This document shows, in pieces, positions 34,349 through 52,519 of a stretch of 64,000 bases of DNA. The stretch comes from Trinickia caryophylli (GTDB taxonomy: Bacteria; Pseudomonadota; Gammaproteobacteria; Burkholderiales; Burkholderiaceae). Under the pieces are notes generated by a model, which was not told the DNA's origin, made no database searches, and was given only the letters and a program-made list of their open reading frames with translations. The DNA lies in NCBI RefSeq assembly GCF_034424545.1, contig NZ_CP139971.1, positions 620,001-684,000 on the forward strand, written 5' to 3'. Each line of letters opens with the position of its first letter. Positions within the stretch are counted from its first letter, which is position 1. Position numbers and translations under genes: made by a program.

Positions 34349-34392
34349 CTCTTTCGTCCCTCAAATACCGCGGTACGGCCCGCATTCCAGGG

Positions 34393-34408
34393 CTGTCATA
34401 GTTAGCAG
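34393..34408 (+). promoter_or_regulatory. candidate lux box upstream of rsaM
   Basis: The 16-mer CTGTCATAGTTAGCAG has the outer CTG/CAG arms of lux boxes but an imperfect inner part. It ends 36 bp before the rsaM start, in the 96-bp luxR-rsaM gap. Confidence 0.45.
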
Positions 34409-34444
34409 GTCCCACGGGCGGCGCGGACTGCTACAGTCGCCCCC

Positions 34445-34891
34445 ATGAGACACATTCCCGTGCCCGCCGACAGCCGGTTTCGAGACGGATATGTCCGCCT
34501 TCCCGAAGAGGCGTTGGACGAGATGAACCTCGTTCACGTCGACTCCGGCCTCGACGAAATGCTGCTGCAGGAATTGCTCGCCAACGACGTCGACGCGGTA
34601 ACCGCCGGCTACACCGAGTGGGAGCAAACGCCTTTGCCTGGGCGTACTCATATTACGCTCGGATGGGACTGGTACCTGGACCGCACGTCCGGTGCACTCG
34701 TCGTCGCCTGGGGCGACGTGCGCAGCAATGTCATGTGCATCGGCACCGACGGCCGCGACCTCGGCATGGCCCGCACCGCCTGGCTGCTCGTACGTCGCGT
34801 TTCGCTGCTGAACTGGCCTGGCGCCGTCACGCAAGCCGCGCTCGCGCAGATGCCGGAACGGGCGAATGAGATCGGCCCGACCTTGCAGTAG
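34445..34891 (+). CDS. rsaM: RsaM/CepM-family quorum-sensing brake
   Basis: 148-residue soluble protein with the conserved RsaM aromatic pattern GYTEWEQTPLPGRTHITLGWDWY near residue 60 and GALVVAWGDVRSNVM after it. RsaM proteins lower AHL production by an unknown mechanism; they have no DNA-binding motif. It sits between luxR and luxI, as cepM does between cepR and cepI in Burkholderia cenocepacia. A possible lux box before it suggests AHL-dependent negative feedback. Confidence 0.88.
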   Translation: MRHIPVPADSRFRDGYVRLPEEALDEMNLVHVDSGLDEMLLQELLANDVDAVTAGYTEWEQTPLPGRTHITLGWDWYLDRTSGALVVAWGDVRSNVMCIGTDGRDLGMARTAWLLVRRVSLLNWPGAVTQAALAQMPERANEIGPTLQ

Positions 34892-35047
34892 CAAGCAGCG
34901 TCGCGCGGATGCGCTCCCCTCGACACGAACTCGTCCTAAAGCCACTTTATAAGCAAAACCGGAACCATTTTCAATCCTGCTACGAATACCTGAGCCCCTG
35001 AGTCGGTGCGATCGCCCCGGGGAGGGTCTTCTATTGCCTGGGAAAAC

Positions 35048-35092
35048 CTGTCAACTCTGACAGTTACCGGTCCTCGGGGTGCGCGCTGTAAT
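35048..35092 (+). promoter_or_regulatory. lux box and -10 of the first luxI
   Basis: CTGTCAACTCTGACAG at 35048-35063 is a perfect 6-bp dyad (CTGTCA/TGACAG) of lux-box form. TGTAAT at 35087-35092 is a good -10, placing the dyad centre about 42 bases upstream of transcription start, the class II arrangement of LuxR-activated promoters. luxI starts at 35125. Confidence 0.8.
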
Positions 35093-35124
35093 GCGGCATC
35101 AGAACAAGCATACGCGAGGACTCC

Positions 35125-35733
35125 ATGCGGACTTCTGTTCACGGCGACGGGCGCCTGCCCGAAGACCTCGATGCCGCATTGGCGCAGTACCGGCATCAGG
35201 TTTTCGTCGAGCAGCTCGGCTGGGATCTGCCGTGTGTCGATGGCCGCTTCGAGCGCGATCAATACGACCGGGCCGATACGGTCTACGTTGTGGCCCGGGA
35301 CGAATCCGGTGCGATCTGCGGATGCGCACGGCTGTTGCCGACGACCCAGCCCTATTTGCTGCGCGAAGTGTTTCCGTTCCTGCTCGCGGTCGATATGGTC
35401 GCCCCCCAATCGCCGGACGTCTGGGAGCTTTCGCGCTTTGCGGCGAGCCCCGCAGGCAAGGCGGACGCGCTCGGCGAAGAGAGCACGGCATGGGCGGTAC
35501 GGCCGATGCTCGCCTCTGTCGTCGAATGCGCGGCGCGCCTGGGGGCGAAGCAACTGATCGGCGTGACGTTCCTCAGCATGGAGCGCCTGTTTCGGCGCAT
35601 CGGCGTTCACGCGCACCGGGCCGGGCCCGCGCAGCGCATCGACGGCCGGATGGTCGTGGCCTGCTGGATCGACATCGACGAGCAAACGCTCACCGCGCTC
35701 GGCCTCGAGCCGTCGCTCGCCCGGGGCGCTTGA
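35125..35733 (+). CDS. cepI: LuxI-type acyl-homoserine-lactone synthase, CepI-like
   Basis: 202 residues. Conserved AHL-synthase residues are visible: YRHQVFVEQLGWDLP (Arg, Phe and Trp of the N-terminal SAM site), FERDQYDRADTVYVV (Asp), GCARLLPTTQPYLLREVFP (Arg), WELSRFAASP (Glu and Arg) and GVTFLSMERLFRRIG. It makes an AHL from S-adenosylmethionine and an acyl carrier; chain length cannot be read. GAGGA lies just before the ATG, and a perfect lux box is 61 bp upstream, so it is autoinduced by the luxR product. Confidence 0.9.
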   Translation: MRTSVHGDGRLPEDLDAALAQYRHQVFVEQLGWDLPCVDGRFERDQYDRADTVYVVARDESGAICGCARLLPTTQPYLLREVFPFLLAVDMVAPQSPDVWELSRFAASPAGKADALGEESTAWAVRPMLASVVECAARLGAKQLIGVTFLSMERLFRRIGVHAHRAGPAQRIDGRMVVACWIDIDEQTLTALGLEPSLARGA

Positions 35734-38214: not shown

Positions 38215-39726
38215 CTACCACCCATATTTGAGTTCGAGACCGGCGTAGTCGGCGTTATGCCCGCCCGCCTGACGAATCGCATCTCCCACCTGAAAGTGGA
38301 CGGCTTCGAGAGATCCGATCAAGTTGGCCGCGATCGTCCAGTCCGCGCGAAGCTGCACGTACATCCCCGTCCACAGCCCGCCCCTGCCCGCGGTACCGGG
38401 CACGGCCTGGTTCGCCTGCTGATAGACCGCATCGCCGGTCGTCTCGCGCCACTGGAAGCCCAACGCGCCGAGCAGCGAGAGATTCGCCGAGGGCTTGAGC
38501 GTGACGGAAGGCTTCACGTGGATCAGGTTCGTATAGCCGGTGTAGCCCGCGAGCGTAAAGTAGTAGCCGTTCGGGAACAGTGAATTGAACGTCCCGACCC
38601 GGCCGTCGTGCGGATGTCGGTCGCCGGACGCCACATCGACCTGCAGCGCCAGACGGGGCGACCACGGCAAGTCGAGCTTGTAGCCCGCGATCGAACCCAC
38701 CGCCCACGCGCGGATCGTGGCGTCACCGACCGTCCCGGTCTGCAGCATCGCTTCCACGTCCCAATCGAAGCGCTCATGCGTGCCGGAATAGCGCACATCC
38801 CAGACATCGCGATGCTCCGGGCCCATTGCATCGATGAAGTGCGCATTGCTGCGGTTGTAGCGCGACCAGTAGCCGGAGAGATCGCCAGGGCCCACCGACT
38901 GCCGTTCGAAGCGCACGCCGCTGAACGTGAGACTGCGGTTCGACACGTCGTCGAATGGCGACGCGCTGCGGTTCTCCACCGGTTGAGTCGCATACGCGAT
39001 AAAACGCCACTTCCGGTACTCGTAGTCAGCCCAGACCGCATCGAATGCCTGACGCACGTTCGGGCCGTCGCGCACCGAGACGAAGCGCTGAAGATCGAAT
39101 GCCATTTCCTGGCGGCCAACGCGAAACTTGAATGTCCCGCCGCCAACGGCGCCGCTATAGGTAGCGAATGCCTGCTCGAGATCGAGCGGATTCTTGTCCA
39201 CCGGTTTGATCGTGTTTTTCGCGTACGCCCGCGCATCCTCGAGCTGCACGAAGAACTGCCAGTGCCCGCCGATATGCACATCGGCATGAACCTCGGTTCG
39301 CTGAAGCAGATAGGTGTCCGACTGGGCGGAGCCGATGCCGAACAGCGGCGCATTGTTGCTTTCGACGCGCTCGCGCAGATTCACGCCCAGCGACAGATAC
39401 GAATCCGGGTCACCGCCGAGCGGCATGTACTTGAGCGCGTCGAGCGGCTTACGAGGAACGCATGGGTTCGCAAGCGCCGACCAGTCCTCCTGCCAGCGGT
39501 TGAAGAGCACGATCGGTCGTCCGGCATCGCACACGGCTTTCGACGTGCCACCGACTCCCGATGCGGTCGCTGCATCCGCCGCCAGCTTGACCGCCGGCGC
39601 TTGCGAGGCCGTTTCGGCCACGGCCGCGCCAGCCTGCGCCACCGTGATCCCGGCGAGGGCGGCAACGCTCGCCGTCTTTTCCACCCGATGCACGCGCATT
39701 GCGGCGGACAGAACGATTCGAATCAT
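38215..39726 (-). CDS. alginate-export-family outer-membrane beta-barrel protein
   Basis: 503 residues. An N-terminal export signal ends near residue 38 (AQAGAAVAETASQ), followed by a large beta-barrel with alternating aromatic strands (LSLGVNLRERVE, RTEVHADVHIGGHWQFFVQLEDARAY, FRVGRQEMAFDLQRFVSVRDGPNVRQAFDA, ending in KYGW). This matches the alginate_exp family, which includes AlgE and many solute channels. Here it is the last gene of an eight-gene operon of small-molecule enzymes, so it is more likely a substrate or product channel than a polysaccharide exporter. Its ATG overlaps the DUF1275 stop by 4 bp. Confidence 0.85.
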   Translation of the reverse strand: MIRIVLSAAMRVHRVEKTASVAALAGITVAQAGAAVAETASQAPAVKLAADAATASGVGGTSKAVCDAGRPIVLFNRWQEDWSALANPCVPRKPLDALKYMPLGGDPDSYLSLGVNLRERVESNNAPLFGIGSAQSDTYLLQRTEVHADVHIGGHWQFFVQLEDARAYAKNTIKPVDKNPLDLEQAFATYSGAVGGGTFKFRVGRQEMAFDLQRFVSVRDGPNVRQAFDAVWADYEYRKWRFIAYATQPVENRSASPFDDVSNRSLTFSGVRFERQSVGPGDLSGYWSRYNRSNAHFIDAMGPEHRDVWDVRYSGTHERFDWDVEAMLQTGTVGDATIRAWAVGSIAGYKLDLPWSPRLALQVDVASGDRHPHDGRVGTFNSLFPNGYYFTLAGYTGYTNLIHVKPSVTLKPSANLSLLGALGFQWRETTGDAVYQQANQAVPGTAGRGGLWTGMYVQLRADWTIAANLIGSLEAVHFQVGDAIRQAGGHNADYAGLELKYGW

Positions 39727-40418
39727 GCGCGCCCCACCGTCGCCGCTCGTTCGTGCTCGCCCGCCGTCAATGCGAGCGCCGCGAGCGCACATACCGGCGC
39801 AGCCAACGCCCAGAATCCCGCGTAGCGAAAGGCGAACGCGCCAGCCGTCGCGCCAATGGCGAAAGCGACGATGGCCGGCATCATCTTCGCGAACCGCGCG
39901 CGCGCCGACGCGCGTACGCTCTCGGCAGTACGCGCCGAGAGCATATCGACGGCATCGAGAATCGCCTGCGTGACGTTGCCCGTCATCACCGTATTGGGCA
40001 CGCCCGCGCGCTGGATCAAACGCGGATGTGCGTTCTGCACGCCCATCGCCAACGCGCCCAGTACGCCGGCCAGAATCGCCGGCAGCCCGTCGGGCCGGCC
40101 AATCGGGGTGGACCACACCCCAGCCGCGCAGAAGGCCGCCATGAGGACGGCCTGTACCGCATAGAGCAGGCGCGCGCCGTGCAGAATATGCCGCCCCGAC
40201 AGCGATCGCACCAGCAGAGCGCTGAAAACGACTCCGCCAATGAACGCGGGAAACACGATGAGCTTCAGGAAAACGCCTTGTGCATAGCCCGCAATGCCGG
40301 CACCGATCAGCACGAAGTTGCCGGTCACGTGCGCGGTGAAGAGCCCGAACAGCGCCACAAAACTCAGCGTATCGACGAACCCTGCGATCGCCGCAAGAAC
40401 CGTGTCTTCGGATTTCAT
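39723..40418 (-). CDS. DUF1275 (YoaK-like) inner-membrane protein
   Basis: 231 residues with about six hydrophobic helices. The family motifs are GFVDTLSFVALFGLFTAHVTGNFV at the N terminus and MGVQNAHPRLIQRAGVPNTVMTGNVTQ in the middle. Function of DUF1275 is unknown; a transporter or membrane sensor is usually supposed. Overlaps the genes on both sides by 4 bp, so it is translationally coupled to the VOC protein and the porin. Confidence 0.88.
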   Translation of the reverse strand: MKSEDTVLAAIAGFVDTLSFVALFGLFTAHVTGNFVLIGAGIAGYAQGVFLKLIVFPAFIGGVVFSALLVRSLSGRHILHGARLLYAVQAVLMAAFCAAGVWSTPIGRPDGLPAILAGVLGALAMGVQNAHPRLIQRAGVPNTVMTGNVTQAILDAVDMLSARTAESVRASARARFAKMMPAIVAFAIGATAGAFAFRYAGFWALAAPVCALAALALTAGEHERAATVGRA

Positions 40419-41329
40419 GTCGCGGCACTCGCGTGTATTTCGGCGATGTATCCGCCCGGAAACTGCACGATTGCGGCGGTACGCCCATCGGATGTGAACG
40501 GCGGCACGAGCACCGTCACGCCCGCGGCCTGGGCTTTGCGCAGTGTCTCGGCGAGATCGCGCACTTCGTAGCCCGTCATTTCGCGGCCAAACGGATAGGG
40601 CAAGTGCCCGTCCGTCACGATCACCGTCATCCTGCCAAAGCCGGACTCCAGGCGGACACGGCGATAAGTGTCGTTCGGGCGCCCGATTTCGATACCGGGT
40701 GCATTGCGTACGTCGGAAACAATCCGGCCTTGCGAGAATCCGCTGAACTTCTGGATCAGCTTGTCCGCGCTATCGGGCGAAACATACACGCGGTTTTCGG
40801 GAACCGTCTGCAACGCATCGTAATGCGGTGCCTCGGTATGCCAGTACAGCTGCATGTTGACGCCGCCCGGCCATGAGATGACGACATCGCGGCCGATCGG
40901 ATCCGGGAAGGTGTCGACGATCACATTCGCACCGTGCATACGCGCGGACCGCACCGCCGCATCCATGTCGCTCACGAGGTAGCCCGTACGCTCGGCGCCA
41001 AACGGATAAGGCACAGGCGTCTTGAAACCGAATACGGAAATCGTCCCCGACGGGGTAAATACGAGCTGCGACATCGTCTGGCTCGGCGTCGGCGTCACCT
41101 GGAAAACGCCCTCCTTCGATTTGCTGCCGCCGAACGTCGCGACAAAACTGTCCGTAAAGCGATCGAAGTCTTCCGGCGCGACGTAGACGTGCGTGGTGTC
41201 GTACTGCGGCCCGACGGCGAGCGACGGCGCGGCGTGCGTCGCAGCCGGTGTTTTCGCAAACGATTCGGGTACGGCGACCAGTTGGCTGGCGATCATCAGC
41301 GCCAGTAGCGCCGAGCGAATTTTTCTCAT
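40415..41329 (-). CDS. exported glyoxalase/VOC-superfamily protein
   Basis: 304 residues with a Sec signal peptide (MRKIRSALLALMIASQLVAVPESFA, cleavage about residue 25) and two vicinal-oxygen-chelate modules (about 45-160 and 180-295). Each has a VYVSPD/VYVAPED start and the paired pattern PYPFG-RTGYLVSDMDAAVR and PYPFGREMTGYEVRDLAETL. An exported VOC protein is uncommon; it may be a periplasmic metal-dependent enzyme or binding protein. Operon position between DoxX and DUF1275 suggests it acts on the same compound as the amidohydrolase and isochorismatase-type enzymes. Confidence 0.85.
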   Translation of the reverse strand: MRKIRSALLALMIASQLVAVPESFAKTPAATHAAPSLAVGPQYDTTHVYVAPEDFDRFTDSFVATFGGSKSKEGVFQVTPTPSQTMSQLVFTPSGTISVFGFKTPVPYPFGAERTGYLVSDMDAAVRSARMHGANVIVDTFPDPIGRDVVISWPGGVNMQLYWHTEAPHYDALQTVPENRVYVSPDSADKLIQKFSGFSQGRIVSDVRNAPGIEIGRPNDTYRRVRLESGFGRMTVIVTDGHLPYPFGREMTGYEVRDLAETLRKAQAAGVTVLVPPFTSDGRTAAIVQFPGGYIAEIHASAAT

Positions 41330-41365: not shown

Positions 41366-41812
41366 TCACGACCGACGGTAACTGCCGTCGCTCGGTGAAT
41401 CGCTGAGAGCGGTGGCGAGCACGAGCGCGGCAATCAGGCCAAGATGCTCGAAAAAGCTATTGAGGGCCATGAAACGCGCAGCGCCAGCGTGGTTCCAGAA
41501 ATCGTTGGCGACGAGCATCGCAACGACTGTCAGCACGCCGAGCCCGCCGGCGCCGACCCACGTGAAGCGACGAAACACGACGCACAGCGAGCCGACAATC
41601 TCGACCGCTATTGCGAGCACGGCCCAGAGAGCGGCGGGATGCAGGCCAAAATGCGCTTGCTCCGCAGTGGCGCCACCGAAGTGCAACGCCTTGTCGATAC
41701 CGCCTATGAGATAGGCGGATACCAACGCCAGGCGCACGAGCGGCATCGTCCACGGCTGGGCGAGCAGCACGCGAACCCATTCGGGGTTGCTACGGCGCGT
41801 CATGGTCGCCAT
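41366..41812 (-). CDS. DoxX-family membrane protein
   Basis: 148 residues, about four TM helices (PLVRLALVSAYLIGGIDKAL; ALWAVLAIAVEIVGSLCVVF; GAGGLGVLTVVAMLVAND; HLGLIAALVLATALS) in the DoxX/SURF4 pattern. DoxX proteins are linked to quinone or thiol redox at the inner membrane, but most are uncharacterised. The start at 41812 is one base after the amidohydrolase stop; a second ATG at 41803 is possible. Confidence 0.85.
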   Translation of the reverse strand: MATMTRRSNPEWVRVLLAQPWTMPLVRLALVSAYLIGGIDKALHFGGATAEQAHFGLHPAALWAVLAIAVEIVGSLCVVFRRFTWVGAGGLGVLTVVAMLVANDFWNHAGAARFMALNSFFEHLGLIAALVLATALSDSPSDGSYRRS

Positions 41813-41813
41813 G

Positions 41814-43697
41814 TCAGATTGCCCAACACGAACAACCGAACGCCCCCCAGAAACCCTTTGTGTCCGAAGTCGGCAACGCACTGCTCCACGCCTTCGCATG
41901 GGCATGGCCATGCAGGCCGCAGCTGCTCGCACAGCCGCACGCGGCGGCTGCGCGCTGCAGCGGTGCGCCGTCGCGCTGCGTCGCGCCCCAGCCACCATAG
42001 CCTCCGAACTGTCGCACCGGCGACCAGTCGGGCATCGCCGGCGGCACCGGCGCGTCGTGGCTCGCAAACGGCCCCGCGCCCCAAACGATCCGGCCACCGA
42101 CCACCGTCAACAAAGAGGTGGTATCGAGGATGTCCTGCTCGGCACACACAAAGAAATCGCGGTCCGGCACCATCAGATCGGCAAGCTGCCCAACCGCGAT
42201 ACGGCCTTTATTGCCGTCTTCGTTCGAGAACCACGTGACATACTCCGTCCACATGCGCAGTGCCGTTTCGCGATCGAGCAAATTGCGCTGGGGGTACATC
42301 CGCAGGCCACCGATCGTCTTGCCGGTCACGAGCCATGCGAGCGACACCCATGGGTTGTACGACGCCACACGCGTCGCATCGGTGCCGGCCGATACCTTGA
42401 GTCCCTTTTCGAGCATCCGCGCGACAGGCGGCGTGGCTTCCGCCGCCTTCGTGCCGTAGCGCTCGACGAAATACTCGCCCTGGTAAGCCATCCGATGTTG
42501 TACGGCGATACCGCCTCCAAGCGCGGCGATTCGATCCATCGAACGCTCCGAAATGGTTTCCGCGTGATCGAAGAACCAGCGGATGCCATCGAGCGGGATG
42601 TCCTTGTTCACCTTCTCGAATACGTCAAGCGCCCGACTGATGGTTTCGTCGTACGTCGCATGCAGTCGCCATGGCCACCGGTTCTGCGCGAGCACGCGCA
42701 CCACGCTTTCGAGTTCGTCCTCCATTTCCACCGGCAACTCCGGGCGGGCAACTCGAAAATCTTCGAAATCCGCCGCGGAGAACACCAGCATTTCGCCTGC
42801 ACCGTTATGGCGGAAGTAGTCGTTGCCGTCGTGATACTTGACCGTGCGCGTCCAGTTCACGAAGTCGTCCTTTTCGGCCTTCGGCTTCTGCGTAAAGAGG
42901 TTGTAGGCGATGCGAACGGTCATCTCGCCCGCATCGTCCAGCTTGCGGATGACTTCGTAATCGTCGGGGTAGTTCTGAAAGCCGCCGCCCGCATCGATCA
43001 CGCTCGTGACCCCAAGGCGATTGAGCTCGCGCATGAAGTGGCGAGTCGAGTTGTATTGGTACTCGAGCGGCAGCTTCGGCCCTTTCGCTAGCGTTGCGTA
43101 GAGAATCGAGGCATTCGGATTGGCGAGCAGCAGACCCGTGGGGTTGCCAGCCGCATCGCGCATGATCGTGCCGCCCGGGGGCTCTGGCGTGTCCTTCGTA
43201 TAGCCGACGACGCGCAACGCGGCGGCATTGAGCAACGCCCGATCGTACAAATGCAGAATGAAGACGGGTGTGTCGGGCGCCACCGCGTTCAGCTCGTCGA
43301 GCGTGGGCAGGCGCTTTTCCTCGAATTGATGTTCGGTGAAGCCGCCGACCACCCGCACCCATTGCGGTGCGGGCGTAATCGCCACTTGCTGCCTGAGCAT
43401 TTCCATTGCAACCGCGAGCGAGCGCACGCCGTCCCAGCGCAACTCCATGTTGTAGTTCAGGCCGCCGCGAATCACATGCGTGTGATTGTCGATCAGGCCG
43501 GGCAGCATCGGGTGGCCCTTCAGATCGATGACTTTGGTCGACCGGCCCGCCAGCGGCATCACTTCGGCATCGCTGCCGACGGCGATAAAACGGCCATCGG
43601 CGATTGCGACTGCCGTCGCTATCGGGTTCGAACGGTCCAACGTGGTAATCCGTCCGTTGCGGAGAATGAGATCGGGTTGGGTGTCGGTTACGCTCAC
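41814..43697 (-). CDS. YtcJ-type amidohydrolase 3 with Cys/His-rich tail
   Basis: 627-residue metal-dependent amidohydrolase. Metal-site motifs: PGLIDNHTH near residue 68, HATYDETI, RWFFDHAET and the Asp in KVSAGTDATR near 480. The GTG at 43697 is chosen because GGAGG lies 8 bases upstream and the conserved domain begins there; the frame is open further. The last 45 residues are unusual: ACGCASSCGLHGHAHA is rich in Cys and His and could bind metal. Substrate unknown; relatives act on amides, formamides or cyclic ureides. It is flanked by XapX and DoxX genes in one operon. Confidence 0.87.
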   Translation of the reverse strand: MSVTDTQPDLILRNGRITTLDRSNPIATAVAIADGRFIAVGSDAEVMPLAGRSTKVIDLKGHPMLPGLIDNHTHVIRGGLNYNMELRWDGVRSLAVAMEMLRQQVAITPAPQWVRVVGGFTEHQFEEKRLPTLDELNAVAPDTPVFILHLYDRALLNAAALRVVGYTKDTPEPPGGTIMRDAAGNPTGLLLANPNASILYATLAKGPKLPLEYQYNSTRHFMRELNRLGVTSVIDAGGGFQNYPDDYEVIRKLDDAGEMTVRIAYNLFTQKPKAEKDDFVNWTRTVKYHDGNDYFRHNGAGEMLVFSAADFEDFRVARPELPVEMEDELESVVRVLAQNRWPWRLHATYDETISRALDVFEKVNKDIPLDGIRWFFDHAETISERSMDRIAALGGGIAVQHRMAYQGEYFVERYGTKAAEATPPVARMLEKGLKVSAGTDATRVASYNPWVSLAWLVTGKTIGGLRMYPQRNLLDRETALRMWTEYVTWFSNEDGNKGRIAVGQLADLMVPDRDFFVCAEQDILDTTSLLTVVGGRIVWGAGPFASHDAPVPPAMPDWSPVRQFGGYGGWGATQRDGAPLQRAAAACGCASSCGLHGHAHAKAWSSALPTSDTKGFWGAFGCSCWAI

Positions 43698-43717: not shown

Positions 43718-43885
43718 TTAGAAGCCGAACAGATGTTTGACGGATGCCATTGCCTGTTCGCCTATCAACATGCCGAGCAAGCCGATGAGGGCAATCAGCG
43801 GCGGTGCGGGCGAACGCACTTTGATCGCGCTGTAGATCACACCTATCAGCGCGCCAGCGCATAGTGACAGCAGATACGGTTCCAT
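43718..43885 (-). CDS. XapX-domain small membrane protein 1
   Basis: 55 residues with two hydrophobic helices (PYLLSLCAGALIGVIYSAI and PLIALIGLLGMLIGEQ) and the XapX/DUF1427 core RSPAPPLIALIGLLGMLIGE. Function of the family is unknown. It is 20 bp upstream of the amidohydrolase. A second copy is at 44736, on the other side of the isochorismatase-type gene. Confidence 0.85.
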   Translation of the reverse strand: MEPYLLSLCAGALIGVIYSAIKVRSPAPPLIALIGLLGMLIGEQAMASVKHLFGF

Positions 43886-43988: not shown

Positions 43989-44675
43989 TTACTTTGCAGC
44001 CACTGCCGGCAGCACCTGATGCGGCTCAGCCGTACGCTGGGGTGCCTTGTGAACCATCGTGTACGCGTAATCGATACCCATGCCGTACGCGCCCGAATGC
44101 TCCTTCGCGATCGCCATGACGGCGTCGTACGTTGCGCGGTGCGCCCAGTCACGCTGCCACTCGAGCAGAACCTGCTGCCACGTCACCGGAACGACGCCTG
44201 CCTGGATCATGCGTTGCATCGCATAGTCGTGCGCGTCCTTCGACGTGCCGCCCGATGCGTCGGCCACCATGTAGATTTCGTAGCCGCCTTCAAGCATCGC
44301 GCAAAGCGCGAACGTGGTATTGCAGACTTCCGTCCACAAACCCGCAACGACCACCTTCTTCCGGCCGTTCGCCGCCAGCGCATCGCGAACCTTTTGGTCG
44401 TCCCACGAGTTCATCGACGTGCGTTCGAGCAGCTTGTGATCGGGAAATACATCGAGCACTTCCGGATAGGTGAAGCCAGAGAAGCTTTCCGATTCGACGG
44501 TGGTGATCGTGGTCGGAACGTTGAAAACCTTGGCCGACTTGGCCAGTCCGACGACGTTGTTCTTCAGCACCTGACGGTCGATCGACTGCACGCCGAAGGC
44601 CATCTGCGGCTGCTGGTCGATGATGATCAGTTGGCTGTTCTGGGGCGTCAGTACTTCAAGCTTGGGATTGCTCAT
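43989..44675 (-). CDS. isochorismatase-fold hydrolase (YcaC-like)
   Basis: 228-residue cysteine hydrolase of the isochorismatase fold. The catalytic Asp is in QLIIIDQQPQMAF (about residue 20) and the nucleophilic Cys in GLWTEVCNTTFAL (about 117), preceded by the cis-peptide region. It resembles YcaC and related amidase-like hydrolases whose substrates are not established. Lies between the two XapX genes; amide or carbamoyl hydrolysis is the likely chemistry. Confidence 0.87.
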   Translation of the reverse strand: MSNPKLEVLTPQNSQLIIIDQQPQMAFGVQSIDRQVLKNNVVGLAKSAKVFNVPTTITTVESESFSGFTYPEVLDVFPDHKLLERTSMNSWDDQKVRDALAANGRKKVVVAGLWTEVCNTTFALCAMLEGGYEIYMVADASGGTSKDAHDYAMQRMIQAGVVPVTWQQVLLEWQRDWAHRATYDAVMAIAKEHSGAYGMGIDYAYTMVHKAPQRTAEPHQVLPAVAAK

Positions 44676-44735: not shown

Positions 44736-45011
44736 TCACGACGGCTGTCGACGCCGTCGGGATACTTCGGAAGCATGGTTGCCAGGCAGCGCGCCGAACA
44801 TGTGCTGGCTGCATTTCGCTTCACGCCACGCCGCACGCAGCTTGAAGCCCGAGAACAGCCGTCGCGCGACAGGCAGAATCTGTTCACCGGCCAGCATGCC
44901 GAGCAAACCCGTCAGTGCAACGACGGGCGGCGCGGGCGATTGCACGCTAATCGCGCCATAGACAGCGCCGGCGAGCATGCCGGCAAGAATCGAAAAAACA
45001 TACGGTTTCAT
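44736..45011 (-). CDS. XapX-domain small membrane protein 2
   Basis: 91 residues. The first 57 repeat the XapX pattern of the 43718 gene (PYVFSILAGMLAGAVYGAI, QSPAPPVVALTGLLGMLAGEQ). The basic C-terminal tail of about 34 residues is extra and may be a read-through extension. First gene of the eight-gene minus-strand operon; a TCCTGAA array lies 92 bp upstream. Confidence 0.83.
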   Translation of the reverse strand: MKPYVFSILAGMLAGAVYGAISVQSPAPPVVALTGLLGMLAGEQILPVARRLFSGFKLRAAWREAKCSQHMFGALPGNHASEVSRRRRQPS

Positions 45012-45102
45012 GAACGGCCTCTTTGACTATCCGACTACCCGCGGCATCGATTGCACCAGCGTCCTAACTTGTGACGAAGACTACGCAAGGCCCGACGGAA
45101 TG

Positions 45103-45130
45103 TCCTGAAATCCGCCTGAAACGTCCTGAA
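45103..45130. promoter_or_regulatory. TCCTGAA direct-repeat array 1
   Basis: TCCTGAA (45103-45109), GCCTGAA (45114-45120) and TCCTGAA (45124-45130), spaced 11 and 10 bp start to start. The whole 28 bp matches 22 of 28 positions with array 2 at 46954. It is upstream of the eight-gene operon starting at 45011. The 299-bp gap 45012-45310 holds nothing else. Confidence 0.6.
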
Positions 45131-45310
45131 GACAAACACTCGATCGATGCGGGCGTCGCGCCTTCACCGACACGCGGCACAGCGGTGGCTTCAGAATGTT
45201 TCAGTAGTGCTTCGATCGCCGATCCGGTCAACGCGCAGCGTGCCGACTCGGCGGGTACGGCAGGGAGATCGGTGGGGGGCGCGCGCCAATATGCGCGGCT
45301 ACTTGTGCGG

Positions 45311-45772
45311 CTACTTGTGCGGTCGCCGCGGCCACGCCGGCGCCGAGGGCTGCACGATGTCGTCGATCTCGATCGTACGCAATACCGACGCCAGAATCAT
45401 TTCTCCGGCATTCAATGCCCGCTGCTTGCGAAGGCGCGGTTTGAATATTTCGTCACCGCGACGGACAGTCCGTCCGCTTACCGCGCATATACCCGACCGA
45501 CGGGCGCGCGCGGCTTGCCAGGTTTGGTATCCGTACGAGCATCGCGTCGCATCGTGCCACGCGATGGTGGCCGCCTCGGCGCCTTGTCGCTCGAGTAGAC
45601 GGATGGTGATATCGCGTGGATTGCACCGTCCGGCGTTCCCGGTTTGCTGCCGACGTTCATGCGCCGCGAGGGAACCCGCGTGCGGGCCCCCAACGTCGTT
45701 CGGACCGACCACGCGCAATAGCAGATTGACGGTATGTCGCCACGGATCCCCGCTCGTTTCGAACATCGACAT
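45311..45772 (-). CDS. DUF3331-family protein
   Basis: 153-residue soluble, basic protein with the DUF3331 core: WHDATRCSYGYQTWQ, ARRSGICAVSGRTVRRGDEIFKPR and LNAGEMILAS. The family is nearly confined to Burkholderia and relatives and has no known function. Paired Cys near RCSYGYQ and GICAVSG could bind metal. It follows the alpha/beta hydrolase gene by 42 bp and is probably co-transcribed from the array-2 promoter. Confidence 0.7.
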   Translation of the reverse strand: MSMFETSGDPWRHTVNLLLRVVGPNDVGGPHAGSLAAHERRQQTGNAGRCNPRDITIRLLERQGAEAATIAWHDATRCSYGYQTWQAARARRSGICAVSGRTVRRGDEIFKPRLRKQRALNAGEMILASVLRTIEIDDIVQPSAPAWPRRPHK

Positions 45773-45814
45773 GTCACGCCCCCTGCTATTGTTCCTGGAT
45801 GAGGTATCCGCCTG

Positions 45815-46813
45815 CTACATCTTCAAGAAGGACAGGAGATCCGCATTCACCTGCTCCGCATGCGTACCGCACATACCGTGCGGTGCGCCGGCATAGACCT
45901 TGAGCGTCGCCTGCTTGACGATCTTGGCCGCCAGCTTTGCCGAATCGTCGATCGGAACGATCTGATCGTCCTCGCCGTGCAGGAACAACGTCGGTACGTC
46001 GATTCGTTTCAAGTCTTCGGTATAGTCGACCTCCGAAAACTGCTTGATGCATTCGTATTGGCCCTTGATCGATCCCAGCATGCCCTGACGCCAGAAATCC
46101 TGGATCAGCCCCTCCGATCGTTTTGCGTTCGGGCGGTTGAATCCGAAGAACGGCGTGGCCAGATCGAGATAGAACTGCGAGCGGTTCCCGGCGACGCCTT
46201 TGCGAATGTTGTCGAACACGTCCATCGGCAGCCCGCCGGGGTTACTCGCGGTCCTCAACATGATGGGTGGAACGGCGCCGATCAAGACCGCCTTCGCGAC
46301 CCGCTTCGTGCCATGCCGGCCGATGTAGTGCGCGACTTCGCCACCTCCCGTTGAATGCCCCACCAGCATCGCGTTCCTGATATCGAGCGTATCAAGCACG
46401 GCCGTCAGGTCGTCAGCGTAGGTGTCCATATCGTTACCGCCCGACGACTGTCCCGAGCGGCCATGCCCACAACGATCGTGTGCTATCACGCGATAGCCCT
46501 GATTCACGAGAAACAGCATTTGAGGGTCCCACGCATCCGCGCAAAGCGGCCAGCCATGCGAGAAGACGACCGGGGTTCCCGAACCCCAGTCCTTATAGAA
46601 GATTTCGGTGCCATCCTTGGCTTTGACGAATGTTCCGATCTCCGAGTGGCGGTGTGCGGCCGCCTGACCGTGCCCGGTCGCCGCGCCCGCGTGGCCTGCC
46701 GCGCTCGCCGGCAGGCTCGACATCGCCGCCATCGCGCCGGCCATGCTCGCACCGGCCGAAACCAATCTACGGCGCGTTGCGCACGGCGCCGTCGTACTGT
46801 CTTGCTTGCTCAT
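45815..46813 (-). CDS. Tat-exported alpha/beta hydrolase (non-heme chloroperoxidase/arylesterase type)
   Basis: 332 residues. The N terminus has a twin-arginine motif (TRRRLVSAG, about residue 13) and a hydrophobic region to about 40, so the mature enzyme is probably periplasmic. The catalytic triad is visible: Ser in GHSTGGGE (about residue 150), Asp in HGEDDQIVP and His in GAPHGMC. The oxyanion motif is [12 protein letters not shown]. Close relatives are annotated chloroperoxidases but act as esterases/perhydrolases. Controlled probably through the array at 46954-46981. Confidence 0.88.
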
Positions 46814-46953
46814 TGCGTCTTCTCCGTCAATGCGTCGGGTCGCGCGCGTTGCGGCGCGTCGATGCGTCCGCCAGGTTTGTTACCTCGATTGATACAGCGA
46901 TGGTCCGCCGGCTGTATCACCAGACCCAAGAATAGCGACGAGCGCGCGTGAAG

Positions 46954-46981
46954 TCCTGAATGAGGGCTTAAACGTCCTGAA
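46954..46981. promoter_or_regulatory. TCCTGAA direct-repeat array 2
   Basis: TCCTGAA (46954-46960), GGCTTAA (46965-46971) and TCCTGAA (46975-46981) with the same 11/10-bp spacing as array 1; the AAACGTCCTGAA half is identical. It lies 141 bp upstream of the alpha/beta hydrolase start. Confidence 0.6.
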
Positions 46982-47034
46982 CGGAAATTCGGCTTTAAAT
47001 TTCTTTACTTTTCCCGAACCCTATGTGCGAAATG

Positions 47035-47676
47035 CTAGGTCGACCATCGCGATCCGAGGACCAATCCGCAGAAGTTGATACGCCGATAGTTTGGATCGCA
47101 CCGGTCGAGTATGTCGGCGTTAATCGATCCGAAAGCGGTTTCCGGCCGGCGCTCCATTCCACGCGCATATACCTCGAGGATTTCGTGCTTGAACTCACTT
47201 TCTCTCGGGAAGGCTCGCACGACTTCATCACGTTGCCGCGGGGTAAATTCATCGTAGCGCGCGCCACGTAGATCCATCTGCACACCCGCGCTGACCAGAA
47301 AAACCAGCGGCGACATATATTCCGGGATACCGGGGGTCGTGTGCAGCGCGATGGCGGTCCATACTTCGGTCACCGCAGGCTCGCCGATACCGTTGCTTCG
47401 CAGAAAATCCCGCGCTTCATCGGCGCTGTCGATTTCGAAGCGCCGGGGTGACCGGCAGTAGCGCGCGTTCAGTCCGACGTTATGAAACAGTGCCGCGACG
47501 TAAAGCAATTCATCGTCGAACAGCAAGGCCTCGCGATAGCCCGTCAACGCGCCAAACAGAAAAGAGCGCAACGCATGTCGAAGAAGCATCGTCGATTCGA
47601 CGCAACGGATGCGATCCAAGGCTGCACGAGTGAGCGCGCTATCCGGAATCTCGACCCCGGCTATGGTCGTTTTCAA
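47035..47676 (-). CDS. HD-domain protein, cyanamide hydratase-like, with HN in place of HD
   Basis: 213 residues of the HD superfamily group that includes cyanamide hydratase and HDIG-like hydrolases. The conserved His (LLRHALRSFLFG) and later His (TAIALHTTPGIPE) are present, and an Asp in VQMDLRG. The central HD doublet reads ALFHNVGL, so the Asp is replaced by Asn, which should weaken metal binding. The start is the ATG at 47676 (MKTTIAGVEIPDSALTR, the family N terminus). A TCCTGAA array lies 104 bp upstream. Confidence 0.82.
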   Translation of the reverse strand: MKTTIAGVEIPDSALTRAALDRIRCVESTMLLRHALRSFLFGALTGYREALLFDDELLYVAALFHNVGLNARYCRSPRRFEIDSADEARDFLRSNGIGEPAVTEVWTAIALHTTPGIPEYMSPLVFLVSAGVQMDLRGARYDEFTPRQRDEVVRAFPRESEFKHEILEVYARGMERRPETAFGSINADILDRCDPNYRRINFCGLVLGSRWST

Positions 47677-47779
47677 ATTGCATCTCCCCGCCGAACGGCG
47701 GCTTCACACTCCGGCCACCCCGGTCAAAATCGGCTTCACGCAAAATTTGTAGCCGGCGTTATAGAGAATACGCTTGGCG

Positions 47780-47807
47780 GCCTTAAAAATCCTGAAGGCT
47801 GCTGTAA
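47780..47807. promoter_or_regulatory. TCCTGAA-type repeat array 3
   Basis: GCCTTAA (47780-47786), TCCTGAA (47790-47796) and GCTGTAA (47801-47807), again spaced 10 and 11 bp. The GCxTxAA-AxxTCCTGAA half matches arrays 1 and 2. Upstream of the HD-domain gene at 47676. The rest of the 465-bp gap 47677-48141 contains only the fragment at 47969. Confidence 0.5.
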
Positions 47808-47968
47808 AGATGGGAAATCGTGGCGATCGCCAAAACGCTCCGCGTGGGTGCGGTCAAGGGCGTCTACGAACGGTGACCGTCGGCCCGCTTTCGCGGCGGT
47901 TGCACAATCACCGCGCAGATGTCAGCCGCGCTTTCGCCATCACGACGTTTTGCGAACACGAGGCAACG

Positions 47969-48022
47969 ATGGCGAGGCGAGTCGTTGCGGGCGTTACCAT
48001 TCCCGACACCCCTCGCGCGCGG
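47969..48022 (+). pseudogene. N-terminal remnant of an HD-domain paralogue
   Basis: The ATG at 47969 begins MARRVVAGVTIPDTPRAR, which matches the start of the cyanamide-hydratase-like family and of the neighbour at 47676 (TTIAGVEIPDSALTR). After about 18 residues the similarity stops and the frame becomes Arg-rich noise. It reads on the opposite strand to the intact copy, so it looks like a decayed duplicate. Confidence 0.4.
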
Positions 48023-48141
48023 CTGCGGCCCAGGCGTCCGGACGACATTCGGAAGCGCAGGCACGGACATGCGCGAACGCTGGAACCCGAATGTCCGGCG
48101 CGCCAACCCCAGTGGCCAGTTGCCTGGCTCGAAGCGGCAGG

Positions 48142-48516
48142 TCAGTGCGTTCGGCGCCACGCCCCGGGCGTTTGTCCGACGATCCGCCTGAAGATCCGCG
48201 TGAAATGGGCCTGGTCGCTGAAGCCGTACTTCTGGGCGATTTCAGCCGTGCATAGAGGCAGCTCCCTCAGGTCGGACTGTGCGGCGGCGATGCGTACGTT
48301 CAATCTCCATTGATGGGGCGTTTGGCCCACGCTCAGCCTGAAAGTGCGAAAAAAATGCGCTACCGACTGATTAACGGACGCGGCAACGTCCGCCATGGAA
48401 AGTTCAGCGGCCAGATCGGACTGAAGCATCCTCAGAGCACACGAAAGCCACGGAATCTGCTGTGCCCCGCTCGGAGCCGCCGCGCGACATCGGGCTTCTT
48501 CCGGGTCGATTTTCAT
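48142..48516 (-). CDS. short AraC-type DNA-binding protein
   Basis: 124 residues, consisting almost only of the AraC/XylS double HTH (LSMADVAASVNQSVAHFFRTFRLSVGQTPHQW and TAEIAQKYGFSDQAHFTRIFRRIVGQTPGAWR). No sensor domain is present. GGAGG lies about 8 bases before the ATG. Divergent from the large regulator at 48843 and at the edge of the TCCTGAA-controlled block, so it is one of two local regulators. Stand-alone AraC domains of this size resemble SoxS/MarA-like regulators controlled by abundance. Confidence 0.82.
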   Translation of the reverse strand: MKIDPEEARCRAAAPSGAQQIPWLSCALRMLQSDLAAELSMADVAASVNQSVAHFFRTFRLSVGQTPHQWRLNVRIAAAQSDLRELPLCTAEIAQKYGFSDQAHFTRIFRRIVGQTPGAWRRTH

Positions 48517-48842
48517 GGGGCTCCTCCGTGGGGTCAGCTTTCATAACCGGCAAGAACGGAGTCTGCCCCACGAGGACGTCGATGGGTACCTATATGGAAT
48601 CAAGACATATTTGAGAAAAAATCAAGAATGCCTCCGCACGGCACACCGCCCGCCGCAACCATCGGCACCAGCTTCGCCGAAGCGTCGTTCCCGTTTCGCG
48701 CCGCGTCGAAGAGCATTTTCGTTCAAGACGCAGCGGCCCTGATTCCGTTACATTCGTTGCGTCCAATCACTTGCAGCCTGGGTATGCCTTAACCGTACCC
48801 GCATTCGTTGCGCTCGCTACTCAGCGGTCCCCGGAGATGCCC
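48517..48842. other. divergent gap between two regulators
   Basis: 326 bp between the divergent AraC and winged-helix/STAND genes. It is AT-rich near 48590-48635. No TCCTGAA repeat, hairpin or small gene is seen. Confidence 0.4.
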
Positions 48843-51707
48843 ATGGTCAAGATCGGCACATTGCTGGTGAATTTCGAACGACGGGAGATCCAACGGAACG
48901 GTCTGATGCTACGTGTCAGCGCTCGTGCGTTCGATATCCTCGAAGTACTGTTTCGCGCCAACGGCTCGATCGTCACCAAAGACAAGATTATCGAAGCGGT
49001 TTGGCGAAATCAGATCGTCGAGGAAAACTGCCTGCAGGTTCATGTTGCCGCATTGCGCAAGGTGCTGGATGCCGATCGCGAACTCATCAAGACGGTGAAC
49101 GGCCGCGGTTATATGCTGGTACCGTTCTCCGGTGTCCCGCGCGAGGCTGCCGTCACGGCGGCGTTGCCCCCCATTACGCCACTCATTGGCCGCGACGAGG
49201 ATGTATCGCTCATACGGGCGCAGTTGCGGCAGACGCCGGTCGTCACCCTGGTTGGCGCGGGCGGTATCGGCAAGACGGCGCTGGCGTATTGCATTGCTCG
49301 CACATTGAGTGAGGAGAGAGAAGGCTCCGTGCACTTCGTCGAACTGGCCTCGTCCACCTCGCGCGAGGCGGTCATCGCCACGCTCGCGGTGGCGCTGCAA
49401 GCCGACCCGTCGCAAGCGATGCGGGATCCCCGCTCACTGCTGAGCGGATTGCACACGAGGCGCGCGTTCCTGGTACTCGACAATGCCGAGCACGTGATCG
49501 ACTCGGTGGCCGGTATCGTCGAAGCGCTCATCTCCGGTCCGAACGCGCCGGGTGTGCTCGTGACGAGCCGCGAGCCGCTTGCGATTCGCGGTGAAGCGGT
49601 GATTCGGGTCGAGCCGCTTCCAGTGCCGCCTCGCGACGCGAGCTCCGAGGAGATCCTCGCGTACGGCGCGGTCGAGATGTTTCTGCTGCGCGCCCGCAAT
49701 CTTGCGCCAGGTTGCGCCAGCGACGCGGCGAGCATTCACCTCGTTGCGGATATCTGCCGGCGTCTCGAAGGTTTGCCGCTCGCCATCGAGCTGGCTGCGG
49801 CACGGGTAGCGACACTCGGGGTCAAGGGCGTCGCGGCGCGCCTCGACGACCGCTTGAATCTGTTGAGCGGCGGTCTGCGCTCTGCTTTGCCGCGTCATCA
49901 AACCTTGCGCGCGACGTTCGACTGGAGCTATGGCTTGCTCGATGCCGAAGCGCGCGCCGTGTTCCGCTGCCTTGCATTCTTTTCTGGCGCCTTTACGTTC
50001 GACGCCGTTTGCTCGGTCGCGCTGGAACCCGGCGTGCCGATCGCGGTGGCGATCGCATCGCTCGGCGAACTGGCCGCCAAATCGCTGCTCGCGGTCGAAT
50101 TCCACGGGGCGATCGCGCTATATCGCCTCACCGAATCGACGCGTGCCTATGCGATGGAGAAGCTGCGCGATGGGGGCGAGGTCAAGCGCGTCGCGTATCG
50201 ACATCTGCGCTACCTTCAACGGCAAATCGAGGATCGCTCGGCATTGACGCCCTATCGCACGGAAGGGCAGCCGCTCGGTCATCCGTCGCTGGACGAAGCG
50301 CGCAGCGCGTGGGATTGGGCTTTCTCGGCCGAGGGCGATCCGGCACTCGGCGTGGCGCTCGCAGGCTCGCTCGTCGGCACACTGCTCGACACATCGCACG
50401 CGCACGAATGTCGCGAACGTGCGGAGCATGCGCTTGCGACGCTCGACAGCTTGCCGATCGGCACCATCGACGCCGTCTGCGAGATGCGCCTGTGTTCCGC
50501 ATACGCGGCATCGCTGATTCTGACTGGCGGCACCGCATCCGACGCGGCCCGGTTGTGGAACCGAGTGCTCGAGCGCGCGCAATCCAGCGACCACGAGATC
50601 TTCGCAGCCCGTGCGCAATGGGGCCTGTGGAACGTGGCGATGACGAGCGGCGATATCCATGCGGCACTACGCTTCGCTACGCGCTTCGACGCGCGCGCGC
50701 AGAGCGAGGGCACGCCTTGGCAAAAGCTGTGTGCCAGCGCGACACTCGCGGCGACGCTGCATTGTTTCGGAGAGCATGCTCAGGCGCGCGAACGCCTCGA
50801 GCGGACCCTTTGCGCGCTCGAAACACTCGGGCAGCCCGCGCACGAGGAAAGTGGACTGGCGGTGGATCCGCGCATCTTCGGCACGGGCACACTTGCGCGT
50901 ATCGCATGGCTCCAAGGCGATACGGCACTGGCGTTGCAACTGGTGGAGCGTGCCATCAACTTCCTGCGTGCCGATATCCTCGAACCGTCTCTTTGCCATC
51001 TCCTTGCTGTGTTGGCCGTGCCGCTCGAACTGGCATGCGGCGAGATCGAAGCCGCGTCCCACCATATCGGTTTACTGCGCTCGCAAGCCGCGCTGAACCG
51101 GTTCGACGGGTGGCAGGATTACGGCCAGTGTCTCGCCGGCCAACTCGAATTGGAGACGGGGAATCCCGAAGGTTTGAAGCATCTCGAGGCCGGTTTGGCT
51201 GCGCTTGCGTCACGCGGGTACCGACGGCTGACCGCACCGCTGATTTGTACCTACGCACAAGCCTTGGCCGAGCGCGGGCGCATCGAAGAGGCCATCACAA
51301 AGCTTGACGACGCACAGCGCCACTGTGAAGCCCACGGCGATCTCGGTTTCGCCGCGGAACTCGTGCGCGTCCGCGGCGTTGTCGAACTGGCTAACGCACG
51401 GCGACATCAGGCGCGTGGCAGCCAGAGCGAGATGCCGTATGTCGAGGCGGGCCGCCGTTACTTGCGCGAGGCCATGGCACTCGCCCGTGAGCAGAGCGCG
51501 CGATTGTTCGAATTACGGGCGGCACTCGACTTGGGCGAGTCATTCGCGAAATCCGGCGACGCGAAGGAGGCGCTGGCGGTGCTGAGACCGTTTTCGGCGT
51601 TCACGCCGCAAGCTTGCGGCACGCCGCGCTTGCCTGAGGCGCGCAAGCTCGCGGATCTGTTCAGCCTCCTGCAAGCGAACGCCGTGTGCGCACCGGGTGC
51701 GAGCTGA
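48843..51707 (+). CDS. winged-helix STAND-type ATPase regulator
   Basis: 954 residues. Residues 1-95 are an OmpR/CadC-type winged helix (RVSARAFDILEVLFRANGSIVTKDKIIEAVW, LIKTVNGRGYML). An NB-ARC/AAA-like NTPase follows with Walker A GAGGIGKTA at about 138, Walker B AFLVLDNAEH at about 210 and the sensor VLVTSREPLAIRGE. The rest, about 470-954, is TPR-like helical repeats (many AxxLxxxLxxL pairs). Such SARP-STAND-like proteins are ATP-gated switches that bind direct repeats. I chose the ATG at 48843, 6 bases after CCGGAG; in-frame ATGs at 48837 and 48771 are alternatives. Likely regulator of the three TCCTGAA promoters nearby, an inference from position and repeat type. Confidence 0.85.
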   Translation: MVKIGTLLVNFERREIQRNGLMLRVSARAFDILEVLFRANGSIVTKDKIIEAVWRNQIVEENCLQVHVAALRKVLDADRELIKTVNGRGYMLVPFSGVPREAAVTAALPPITPLIGRDEDVSLIRAQLRQTPVVTLVGAGGIGKTALAYCIARTLSEEREGSVHFVELASSTSREAVIATLAVALQADPSQAMRDPRSLLSGLHTRRAFLVLDNAEHVIDSVAGIVEALISGPNAPGVLVTSREPLAIRGEAVIRVEPLPVPPRDASSEEILAYGAVEMFLLRARNLAPGCASDAASIHLVADICRRLEGLPLAIELAAARVATLGVKGVAARLDDRLNLLSGGLRSALPRHQTLRATFDWSYGLLDAEARAVFRCLAFFSGAFTFDAVCSVALEPGVPIAVAIASLGELAAKSLLAVEFHGAIALYRLTESTRAYAMEKLRDGGEVKRVAYRHLRYLQRQIEDRSALTPYRTEGQPLGHPSLDEARSAWDWAFSAEGDPALGVALAGSLVGTLLDTSHAHECRERAEHALATLDSLPIGTIDAVCEMRLCSAYAASLILTGGTASDAARLWNRVLERAQSSDHEIFAARAQWGLWNVAMTSGDIHAALRFATRFDARAQSEGTPWQKLCASATLAATLHCFGEHAQARERLERTLCALETLGQPAHEESGLAVDPRIFGTGTLARIAWLQGDTALALQLVERAINFLRADILEPSLCHLLAVLAVPLELACGEIEAASHHIGLLRSQAALNRFDGWQDYGQCLAGQLELETGNPEGLKHLEAGLAALASRGYRRLTAPLICTYAQALAERGRIEEAITKLDDAQRHCEAHGDLGFAAELVRVRGVVELANARRHQARGSQSEMPYVEAGRRYLREAMALAREQSARLFELRAALDLGESFAKSGDAKEALAVLRPFSAFTPQACGTPRLPEARKLADLFSLLQANAVCAPGAS

Positions 51708-51930: not shown

Positions 51931-52209
51931 ATGATCAAGTCGTTCCGACACAAGGGCATCCAGGGATTCTTCGAGACAGGCTCCGAGAAAGGCATCCGGC
52001 CAGATCATGCCGACAAGCTGCATCGCCAATTGACTCGCCTGGACTTAGCTACCGGTCCCGAGGACATGAACGTACCGGGCTGGCGGCTGCATCCTCTAGC
52101 TCAGAATCTTGCCGGCCACTATTCGGTGAGAGTCAATGGCAACTGGCGCATGACGTTCACCTTTGATGGCACCGATGCAATTCTGGTGGACTACCAGGAC
52201 TCTCACTGA
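51931..52209 (+). CDS. higB: HigB-type RelE/ParE-superfamily toxin
   Basis: 92 residues in the HigB pattern: MIKSFRHKGIQGFFETGSEKG, KLHRQLTRLD, GWRLHPLAQNLAGHYSVRVNGNWRMTF and DAILVDYQDSH. HigB is a ribosome-dependent mRNA endonuclease; the conserved basic residues and the C-terminal His are present. The antitoxin gene follows 7 bp downstream (toxin first, the usual higBA order). Inside the ribA-flanked element. Confidence 0.9.
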   Translation: MIKSFRHKGIQGFFETGSEKGIRPDHADKLHRQLTRLDLATGPEDMNVPGWRLHPLAQNLAGHYSVRVNGNWRMTFTFDGTDAILVDYQDSH

Positions 52210-52216
52210 GGCAATC

Positions 52217-52519
52217 ATGACTCGAATCTTCAATCCGCCGCATCCCGGCGAAACGCTGCGCGAAGACGTATTGCCCGAATTGGGGCTCACGGTCACGGAA
52301 GCAGCCGAGCAGCTTGGCGTGACACGCTCGGCTCTGTCGCGCGTGCTGAATGCCCATGCTGCAATCTCGCCCGAAATGGCATTACGCCTGGAGCAATGGC
52401 TGGGCATCGAAAATGGTGGGCGGGCCGACTTATGGATTGCCCAACAAGCAGCCTACGACCTTTGGCAAGCTCGCCAGAAAGGTGTGCCGCACGTCGAGCG
52501 CGTCCATCTCGCTGCTTGA
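52217..52519 (+). CDS. higA: HigA-type XRE antitoxin
   Basis: 100 residues: FNPPHPGETLREDVLPELGLTVTEAAEQLGVTRSALSRVLN is the HigA signature and HTH, followed by SPEMALRLEQWLG. It neutralises HigB and represses the higBA promoter. Its last 67 bases overlap, on the opposite strand, the end of the DUF6880 reading frame. Confidence 0.92.
   Translation: MTRIFNPPHPGETLREDVLPELGLTVTEAAEQLGVTRSALSRVLNAHAAISPEMALRLEQWLGIENGGRADLWIAQQAAYDLWQARQKGVPHVERVHLAA

Follow-up and report, generated by a model that had tools for sequence, protein, structure and literature searches.

A composite promoter element linked to a family of winged-helix STAND ATPases in Burkholderiaceae

PhoB boxes are direct repeats set 10-11 bp apart that reach the -35 element, and MalT carries a C-terminal LuxR-type helix-turn-helix (HTH) domain. 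The arrays of direct repeats described here come from a 64,000-nt stretch of Trinickia caryophylli (the window; GCF_034424545.1, NZ_CP139971.1, positions 620,001-684,000, forward strand), where they lie near the gene for a 954-residue ATPase with an OmpR-type winged helix. Among the closest described systems are AfsR and the other large SARPs of Streptomyces, with an OmpR-type DNA-binding domain, a BTA domain, a NOD ATPase and TPRs, and with direct repeats about one helical turn apart that overlap a poor -35 element; in SARP promoters, the repeats are spaced at 11 or 22 bp, and 8 bp separate the 3′ repeat from the -10 element (PMC10936776). We consider it likely that the Trinickia arrays form the operator and -35 element of a class II type promoter, whose reader is the neighboring winged-helix STAND ATPase or, at other loci, one of its paralogues.

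AfsR and the large SARPs have in common with the window regulator an OmpR-type DNA-binding domain, an NTPase, TPRs and repeats over a poor -35 element. In AfsR, the BTA domain follows the winged helix, whereas the window protein gave no BTAD match at E values up to 0.01, and its structure model has only a linker, residues 96-106, between the winged helix and the NTPase. BTAD likewise did not appear for 27 homologues of the regulator, of whose 27 matching families 25 were listed. The promoters differ as well: the 3′ repeat of SARP promoters is 8 bp from the -10 element, while here the third of three boxes, spaced at 10 and 11 bp, runs on as AGGACTT and ends 16 bp from it. In contrast to MalT, the window regulator has its DNA-binding domain at the N terminus, as an OmpR-type winged helix, and a different box. 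PhoB/OmpR response regulators and CadC share the winged helix, and the likeness to PhoB/OmpR extends to direct repeats at 10-11 bp that reach the -35. Unlike these response regulators, the window protein showed no receiver domain in our domain scan and has an NTPase-TPR module.

The regulator and the promoter element in the window

The regulator gene (48843..51707, plus strand; all positions are those of the window unless a replicon is named) encodes an OmpR-type winged helix at residues 1-95, a STAND/NB-ARC NTPase from about residue 112 and a TPR superhelix at about residues 480-950. Matches to PF00486 (E 4.9e-18) and NB-ARC bore out the proposal of the initial annotation that the ATPase beside the arrays carries such a winged helix, and both domains were present in 27 of 27 aligned homologues. 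Residues G138, G140-G141, G143-K144-T145 and L212-D213, which make up Walker A (GxGGxGKT) and Walker B, were invariant in the 27 sequences. The structure model likewise consists of an OmpR winged helix, an Apaf-1-like NTPase and a TPR superhelix. Among solved structures, the best sequence matches of the winged helix were CadC (5ju7) and response regulators. LuxR/GerE had no match in the domain scan of the window protein, nor did it appear among the families listed for the 27 homologues. AfsR was not among the matches listed by Foldseek or VIA-align, which carries no weight against the likeness.

Arrays 1 and 2 were found where the initial annotation had placed them, as direct repeats at 10/11-bp spacing. 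On the minus strand, array 1 (45104-45130) matches TTCAGG-N4-TTCAGG-N5-TTCAGG without mismatch and array 2 (46955-46981) with two mismatches; with up to three mismatches allowed, they are the sole matches in the window. In 100 dinucleotide shuffles, the mean number of matches was 0.02 and none yielded two. Our own comparison reproduced the identity noted earlier between the two 28-mers (22 of 28 bases), and the proposed placement of the arrays 90-140 bp upstream of their genes agrees with the 92, 141 and 104 bp that we measured from arrays 1, 2 and 3 to the next minus-strand start codon. In the whole 6.59-Mb genome, three sites match the triple with at most two mismatches: the two arrays and C2:1302323.

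The repeats are therefore real, but a plain array is an incomplete description, as the element is a full promoter with the third repeat as its -35. When the window was compared with homologous regulator loci, the third box ran on as AGGACTT and was followed, after 16 bases, by TAnnnT. The resulting composite pattern, TTMAG-N5-TTMAG-N9-AGGACTT-N16-TAnnnT, consists of two boxes 10 bp apart, a third box 11 bp further that doubles as a poor -35, and a -10. The boxes thus stand in tandem at helical spacing and extend into a -35 that is itself inferred from the sequence.

Promoter 2 (46929..46981, minus strand), which precedes the alpha/beta hydrolase-DUF3331 pair, fits the composite exactly, with boxes at 46977-46981 and 46967-46971, the third box/-35 AGGACTT at 46951-46957, N16 and the -10 TATTCT at 46929-46934. 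Promoter 1 (45078..45130, minus strand), which precedes the XapX/isochorismatase/amidohydrolase operon, has one mismatch; its parts are TTCAG at 45126-45130, TTCAG at 45116-45120, the third box/-35 AGGACAT at 45100-45106, N16 and the -10 TAGTCT at 45078-45083. Both belong to the training sites of our position weight matrix (PWM), in which promoter 1 scored 49.3 and promoter 2 50.9. The matrix was built from 42 mutually dissimilar sites out of 74 (the window, loci L007-L036 and loci L081-L130, with the L126 site excluded). Beyond the bases of the pattern, the matrix showed conservation of A/G and A following box 1, of T preceding box 2 and T/C preceding the third box, of T following AGGACTT, and of C at the fifth position of the -10.

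The geometry of the element is fixed. We had fetched 41 regulator-homologue loci by regulator protein sequence; 30 (L007-L036) were used, and 11 distant ones (L037-L047) stand outside all counts. When the spacing was left free in a search of the 30 loci and the window, it was always 10, 21 and 16 in 11 of 11 distinct matches, and the reversed control gave none. All 11 matches have TAnnnT at the -10 place, although a -10 was not demanded. In the first tally of the composite, four control cores gave no match scoring at least 7. Exact TTMAGN5TTMAG pairs occur four times in the 64-kb window, all inside this block (45116-47796), where 0.11 would be expected; 0 of 100 shuffles reached four.

Occurrence in relatives and linkage to the regulator family

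When at most one mismatch was allowed, the composite had 54 occurrences, spread over 40 of the 299 Burkholderiaceae genomes surveyed (two of the 54 being the window's own), and the reversed pattern did not occur. Among 300 genomes across the order, only four contained it, two from the same family and two from outside, with one control match. The composite element is thus a Burkholderiaceae feature at this search sensitivity and is at chance level outside the family. The plain TTCAGG triple, at up to three mismatches, gave just four matches in the 30 regulator loci of relatives and one in the reversed control. The refuting condition set in the initial annotation, repeats missing before homologous genes in relatives, thus did not hold, although what is conserved there is the composite promoter and not the plain triple.

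The composite is also linked to the regulator family. Of the 50 site loci, 36 contained a regulator homologue (among them L130, which holds the own-genome site with three mismatches), whereas none of 40 loci displaced by about 100 kb did; the initial annotation had proposed looking for the repeat near homologues of the 954-residue protein. At the level of genomes, scored with two candidates per genome and a homologue threshold of E ≤ 1e-30, 38 of 40 site-bearing genomes had a regulator homologue compared to 37 of 259 without a site (p 1e-24, with kinship ignored). The recognition-helix motif N-x-[LI]-Q-V-H was carried by 82 of the 92 regulator open reading frames (ORFs) linked to sites and by 14 of the 48 without such linkage, counts in which some genes appear twice, through overlapping loci, and a few ORFs are fragments. 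Counted by site, 36 of 52 had a regulator within 10 kb; for the other 16, two have one at about 11 kb and seven at about 10-25 kb.

Several observations weigh against the main reading. Fourteen of the 50 site loci lacked a regulator in the fetched stretch; for seven of these, one lies at about 10-25 kb, and near the other seven sites (L110, L113, L116, L117, L121, L125, and L126) no regulator was found. The L126 site, probably false, was retained in the site counts. No PWM site scoring at least 20 was present in the fetched stretch of 9 of the 30 protein-fetched regulator loci, nor, among genomes lacking a strict site, in that of 22 of 40 regulator loci, and some site-less loci (L009, L036, L015, and L020) carry the same recognition-helix motif. 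The PWM conservation of the pattern's own bases is circular and PWM counts are partly so; nor are the counts independent, as genomes are related, some loci overlap or adjoin, and the pattern was derived in part from those lineages. An AraC gene was also enriched at sites (25 of 50 loci compared to 2 of 40 shifted controls). Finally, in the structure comparison, eight non-bacterial TPR chains ranked above MalT, so the likeness of the sensor reflects mainly a shared TPR superhelix.

Given that some close regulator homologues lack a nearby site, the box could be bound by a winged-helix STAND paralogue encoded elsewhere, such as the short one at C2:1300639-1302063, with the window regulator reading another sequence. 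Same-genome paralogues share similar recognition helices, and at L081, L086, L090, L092, and L104 only a short paralogue lay in the fetched stretch. We nevertheless regard this as unlikely, since the two good sites of the Trinickia genome lie within 4 kb of the window regulator and the third lies about 260 bp from the paralogue.

The enrichment of AraC genes raises a different candidate, as the targets of AraC/XylS proteins are likewise direct repeats of about 10 and 21 bp extending into the -35. In the window, the gene for a 124-residue AraC-type HTH protein (48142..48516, minus strand) adjoins the promoter of the HD-domain gene. However, at 12 of the 36 regulator-linked sites, and thus at 12 of all 52, there was no AraC homologue within 10 kb, the approximate reach of the fetched stretches in each direction, so the gene is not present throughout. 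The reverse, AraC alone, was seen at one site (L120), which has a regulator about 13 kb away, and 15 sites had neither within 10 kb. The presence of AraC tracks that of the regulator (24 of 36 sites with a regulator, 1 of 16 without). It is quite improbable, in our judgment, that the AraC-type protein rather than the STAND regulator binds the boxes.

GGACTT resembles the GGAAC-type -35 elements of extracytoplasmic function (ECF) sigma factors, and the constant N16 spacer of the 11 free-spacing matches would also suit an ECF promoter with incidental upstream boxes. This explanation is very unlikely, because the upstream boxes hold a fixed helical phase and because the -10 place is occupied by TAnnnT in every match; T1, A2, and T6 are the most conserved positions of sigma70 -10 elements. 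In addition, no sigma-factor gene was noticed near the arrays in the ORF list, in which no dedicated search was run. Chance, or a functionless copied repeat, might be read from the degenerate array 3 and the rarity of the plain triple in relatives, yet its probability is negligible in view of the shuffles, the absence of reversed matches in 299 genomes, the fixed geometry and the conservation of the element before orthologous genes.

Genes behind the element and a proposed switch

In other Burkholderiaceae, the first genes downstream of composite sites include homologues of the window's alpha/beta hydrolase (ABH), isochorismatase-fold hydrolase (ISO), amidohydrolase (AMID), glyoxalase-like (VOC), XapX, DUF1275, HD, and DoxX proteins. 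The ORF picker behind this list was a crude one, and a sizeable share of its rows were unidentified or out-of-frame ORFs. Pfam matches in further downstream proteins were to cytochrome c, a thiamine pyrophosphate (TPP) enzyme, the old-yellow-enzyme family, a peroxidase, an MscS channel and a pyridine-nucleotide oxidoreductase with a cNMP domain; the old-yellow-enzyme and peroxidase sites have two mismatches each. We take the TPP enzyme to be PoxB-like and the peroxidase KatG-like. The third site of the Trinickia genome, C2:1302323, lies between the short regulator paralogue and a cytochrome-c-like gene, beyond which are a 2Fe-2S gene and a molybdopterin-oxidoreductase-like gene (all three names read from sequence). 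The regulon extends beyond the three window promoters that the initial annotation had grouped together, and it involves regulator paralogues. The mix of hydrolase, glyoxalase-like, porin and redox genes fits a putative role in small-molecule breakdown or in electrophile or oxidant stress, and the block may be a detoxification or catabolic system, as the initial annotation proposed.

Two groups of loci deserve separate mention. At L113, L116, L121, and L123, the element precedes the TPP enzyme, and for three of the four no regulator was found nearby, making them candidate trans targets. A short regulator paralogue of about 610 residues lies near sites in L086, L090-L092, L104, L081, and L095; in L086, L090-L092, and L104, the boundary of its ORF is 49-56 bp from the site.

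We propose the following mechanism. At rest, the NTPase-TPR part would keep the regulator inactive. An inducer bound by the TPR sensor would, together with ATP, let the regulator oligomerize, and the winged helices would then line up on boxes 10 and 11 bp apart on one face of the DNA helix. With the last winged helix placed on the poor -35 AGGACTT, sigma70 RNA polymerase would be recruited, such that binding would result in activation rather than repression. In the window, the switch would turn on three minus-strand units: XapX-ISO-XapX-amidohydrolase-DoxX-VOC-DUF1275-porin, ABH-DUF3331, and HD. The same switch recurs in a number of relatives beside a single type of ATPase regulator, which points to a probable, undescribed circuit controlling small-molecule enzymes.

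Both STAND activators and class II promoters of the winged-helix type have precedents; their combination with a promoter code of its own is not described in the searchable open-access PMC literature. There we found no description of the regulator group, the box or the operon, and nothing useful on XapX operons, DUF3331, the box sequence or cyanamide-hydratase-like regulons. On balance, we lean slightly towards a broader interpretation, in which Burkholderiaceae have a family of ATP-switched activators (winged helix, STAND NTPase and TPR) that come in long and short versions, have paralogues within single genomes, use the common promoter code TTMAG-10-TTMAG-11-TCAGGACTT-16-TAnnCT, and run a dispersed network of hydrolase, redox and porin operons. 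They would be a Gram-negative counterpart of the large SARPs, with similar promoter logic and without the BTA domain. If so, a code of 20 specified bases would predict regulator targets across a bacterial family. Each regulator would gain a testable reporter, and STAND ATPase transcription switching a Gram-negative system. The XapX, DUF3331, DUF1275, HD, YcaC-like, and Amidohydro_3 gene sets, about which little is understood, would share a regulator, offering a route to the inducer.

Array 3, a fourth box pair and the surrounding genes

Array 3 is real but degenerate. Orthologous HD promoters and the exact pair scan place promoter 3 at 47746..47796 (minus strand), with the pair TTCAGGATTTTTAAG at 47782-47796, a degenerate third box and, by eye, a candidate -10 TACAAA at 47746-47751. 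The window retains the pair but appears to be 1-2 bp shorter beyond it. Among eight other HD homologues (at least 61% identity), seven (L022, L153, L013, L166, L156, L143, and L025) have TTMAG/TTTAAG-like boxes with a degenerate third box, and their -10 lies at +47, again by eye; in L122, where the HD gene follows ABH, the element is missing from the position immediately upstream of HD. The register backed by these orthologues is TTCAGG/TTAAGG. The initial annotation was right that a repeat element is present, but its register differs: TTACAG (47802-47807), which would be the first unit, is off at three of six bases and lies outside the register kept by orthologues, and the three-unit reading that starts with it was rejected. 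An alternative register, with TTCAGGATTT as the -35 and TATTCT (47765-47770) as the -10, is not the one backed by orthologues but scored higher in the gapped PWM scan (24.9 compared to 17.8 for the orthologue-backed register, with a reversed-control maximum of 8.9), so the exact register given here is tentative.

The exact pair scan also revealed a fourth box pair, TTCAGAATGTTTCAG (45190..45204, plus strand), which lies upstream of promoter 1 in the opposite orientation and is absent from the initial annotation. In relatives, 16 of 17 XapX<->ISO intergenic regions hold a box pair pointing to ISO, as part of another promoter arrangement, one not present in the window. In this second arrangement (for example, L094 and L097-L100), a pair towards ISO is followed about 40 bp on by a AATCAGAACAATTAA-like sequence and further down by TTGAATG; it may represent a further kind of promoter under the same regulators.

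All genes behind the three promoters are on the minus strand. The HD-domain protein (47035..47676) matches HD below the Pfam cut-off and is weakly cyanamide-hydratase-like: it scored 33.8 bits against the cyanamide hydratase family TIGR03401, far below the cut-off of 109.85, a hint of nitrile or cyanamide chemistry. Behind promoter 2 are ABH (45815..46813) and the DUF3331 protein (45311..45772). Promoter 1 precedes the first XapX/DUF1427 protein (44736..45011), ISO (43989..44675; YcaC-like below the NCBIfam cut-off), a second XapX protein (43718..43885; start estimated, taken from the ORF list and conserved in relatives) and AMID, an Amidohydro_3 amidohydrolase (41814..43697; start estimated). 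These are followed by a DoxX-like membrane protein (41366..41800; start estimated), named from its sequence and with homologues that adjoin AMID in some relatives; the VOC protein (40415..41329), below the Pfam cut-off and with a signal peptide by eye; the DUF1275 protein (39723..40418); and an Alginate_exp-family outer-membrane protein (38215..39645; start estimated).

A search of plasmid records gave partial matches only, and 0 of 601 records covered 80% of the query in one place. Much of the block (ABH, DUF3331, HD, winged-helix protein, MscS, XapX, hydrolase, amidohydrolase, and DoxX) is present on an 848-kb plasmid-classed replicon of Burkholderia pyrrocinia (L213), where the annotation names the regulator by its domain only and includes DoxX. 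Directly 3′ of the regulator gene in the window, the ORF list contains a toxin-antitoxin pair (51931-52519, plus strand) that is presumably HigB/HigA-like. Further away, ORF translations at 33632-35733 point to a quorum-sensing cassette of adjoining genes, which we take to encode a LuxR-type regulator, an RsaM-like protein and an acyl-homoserine-lactone-synthase-like protein.

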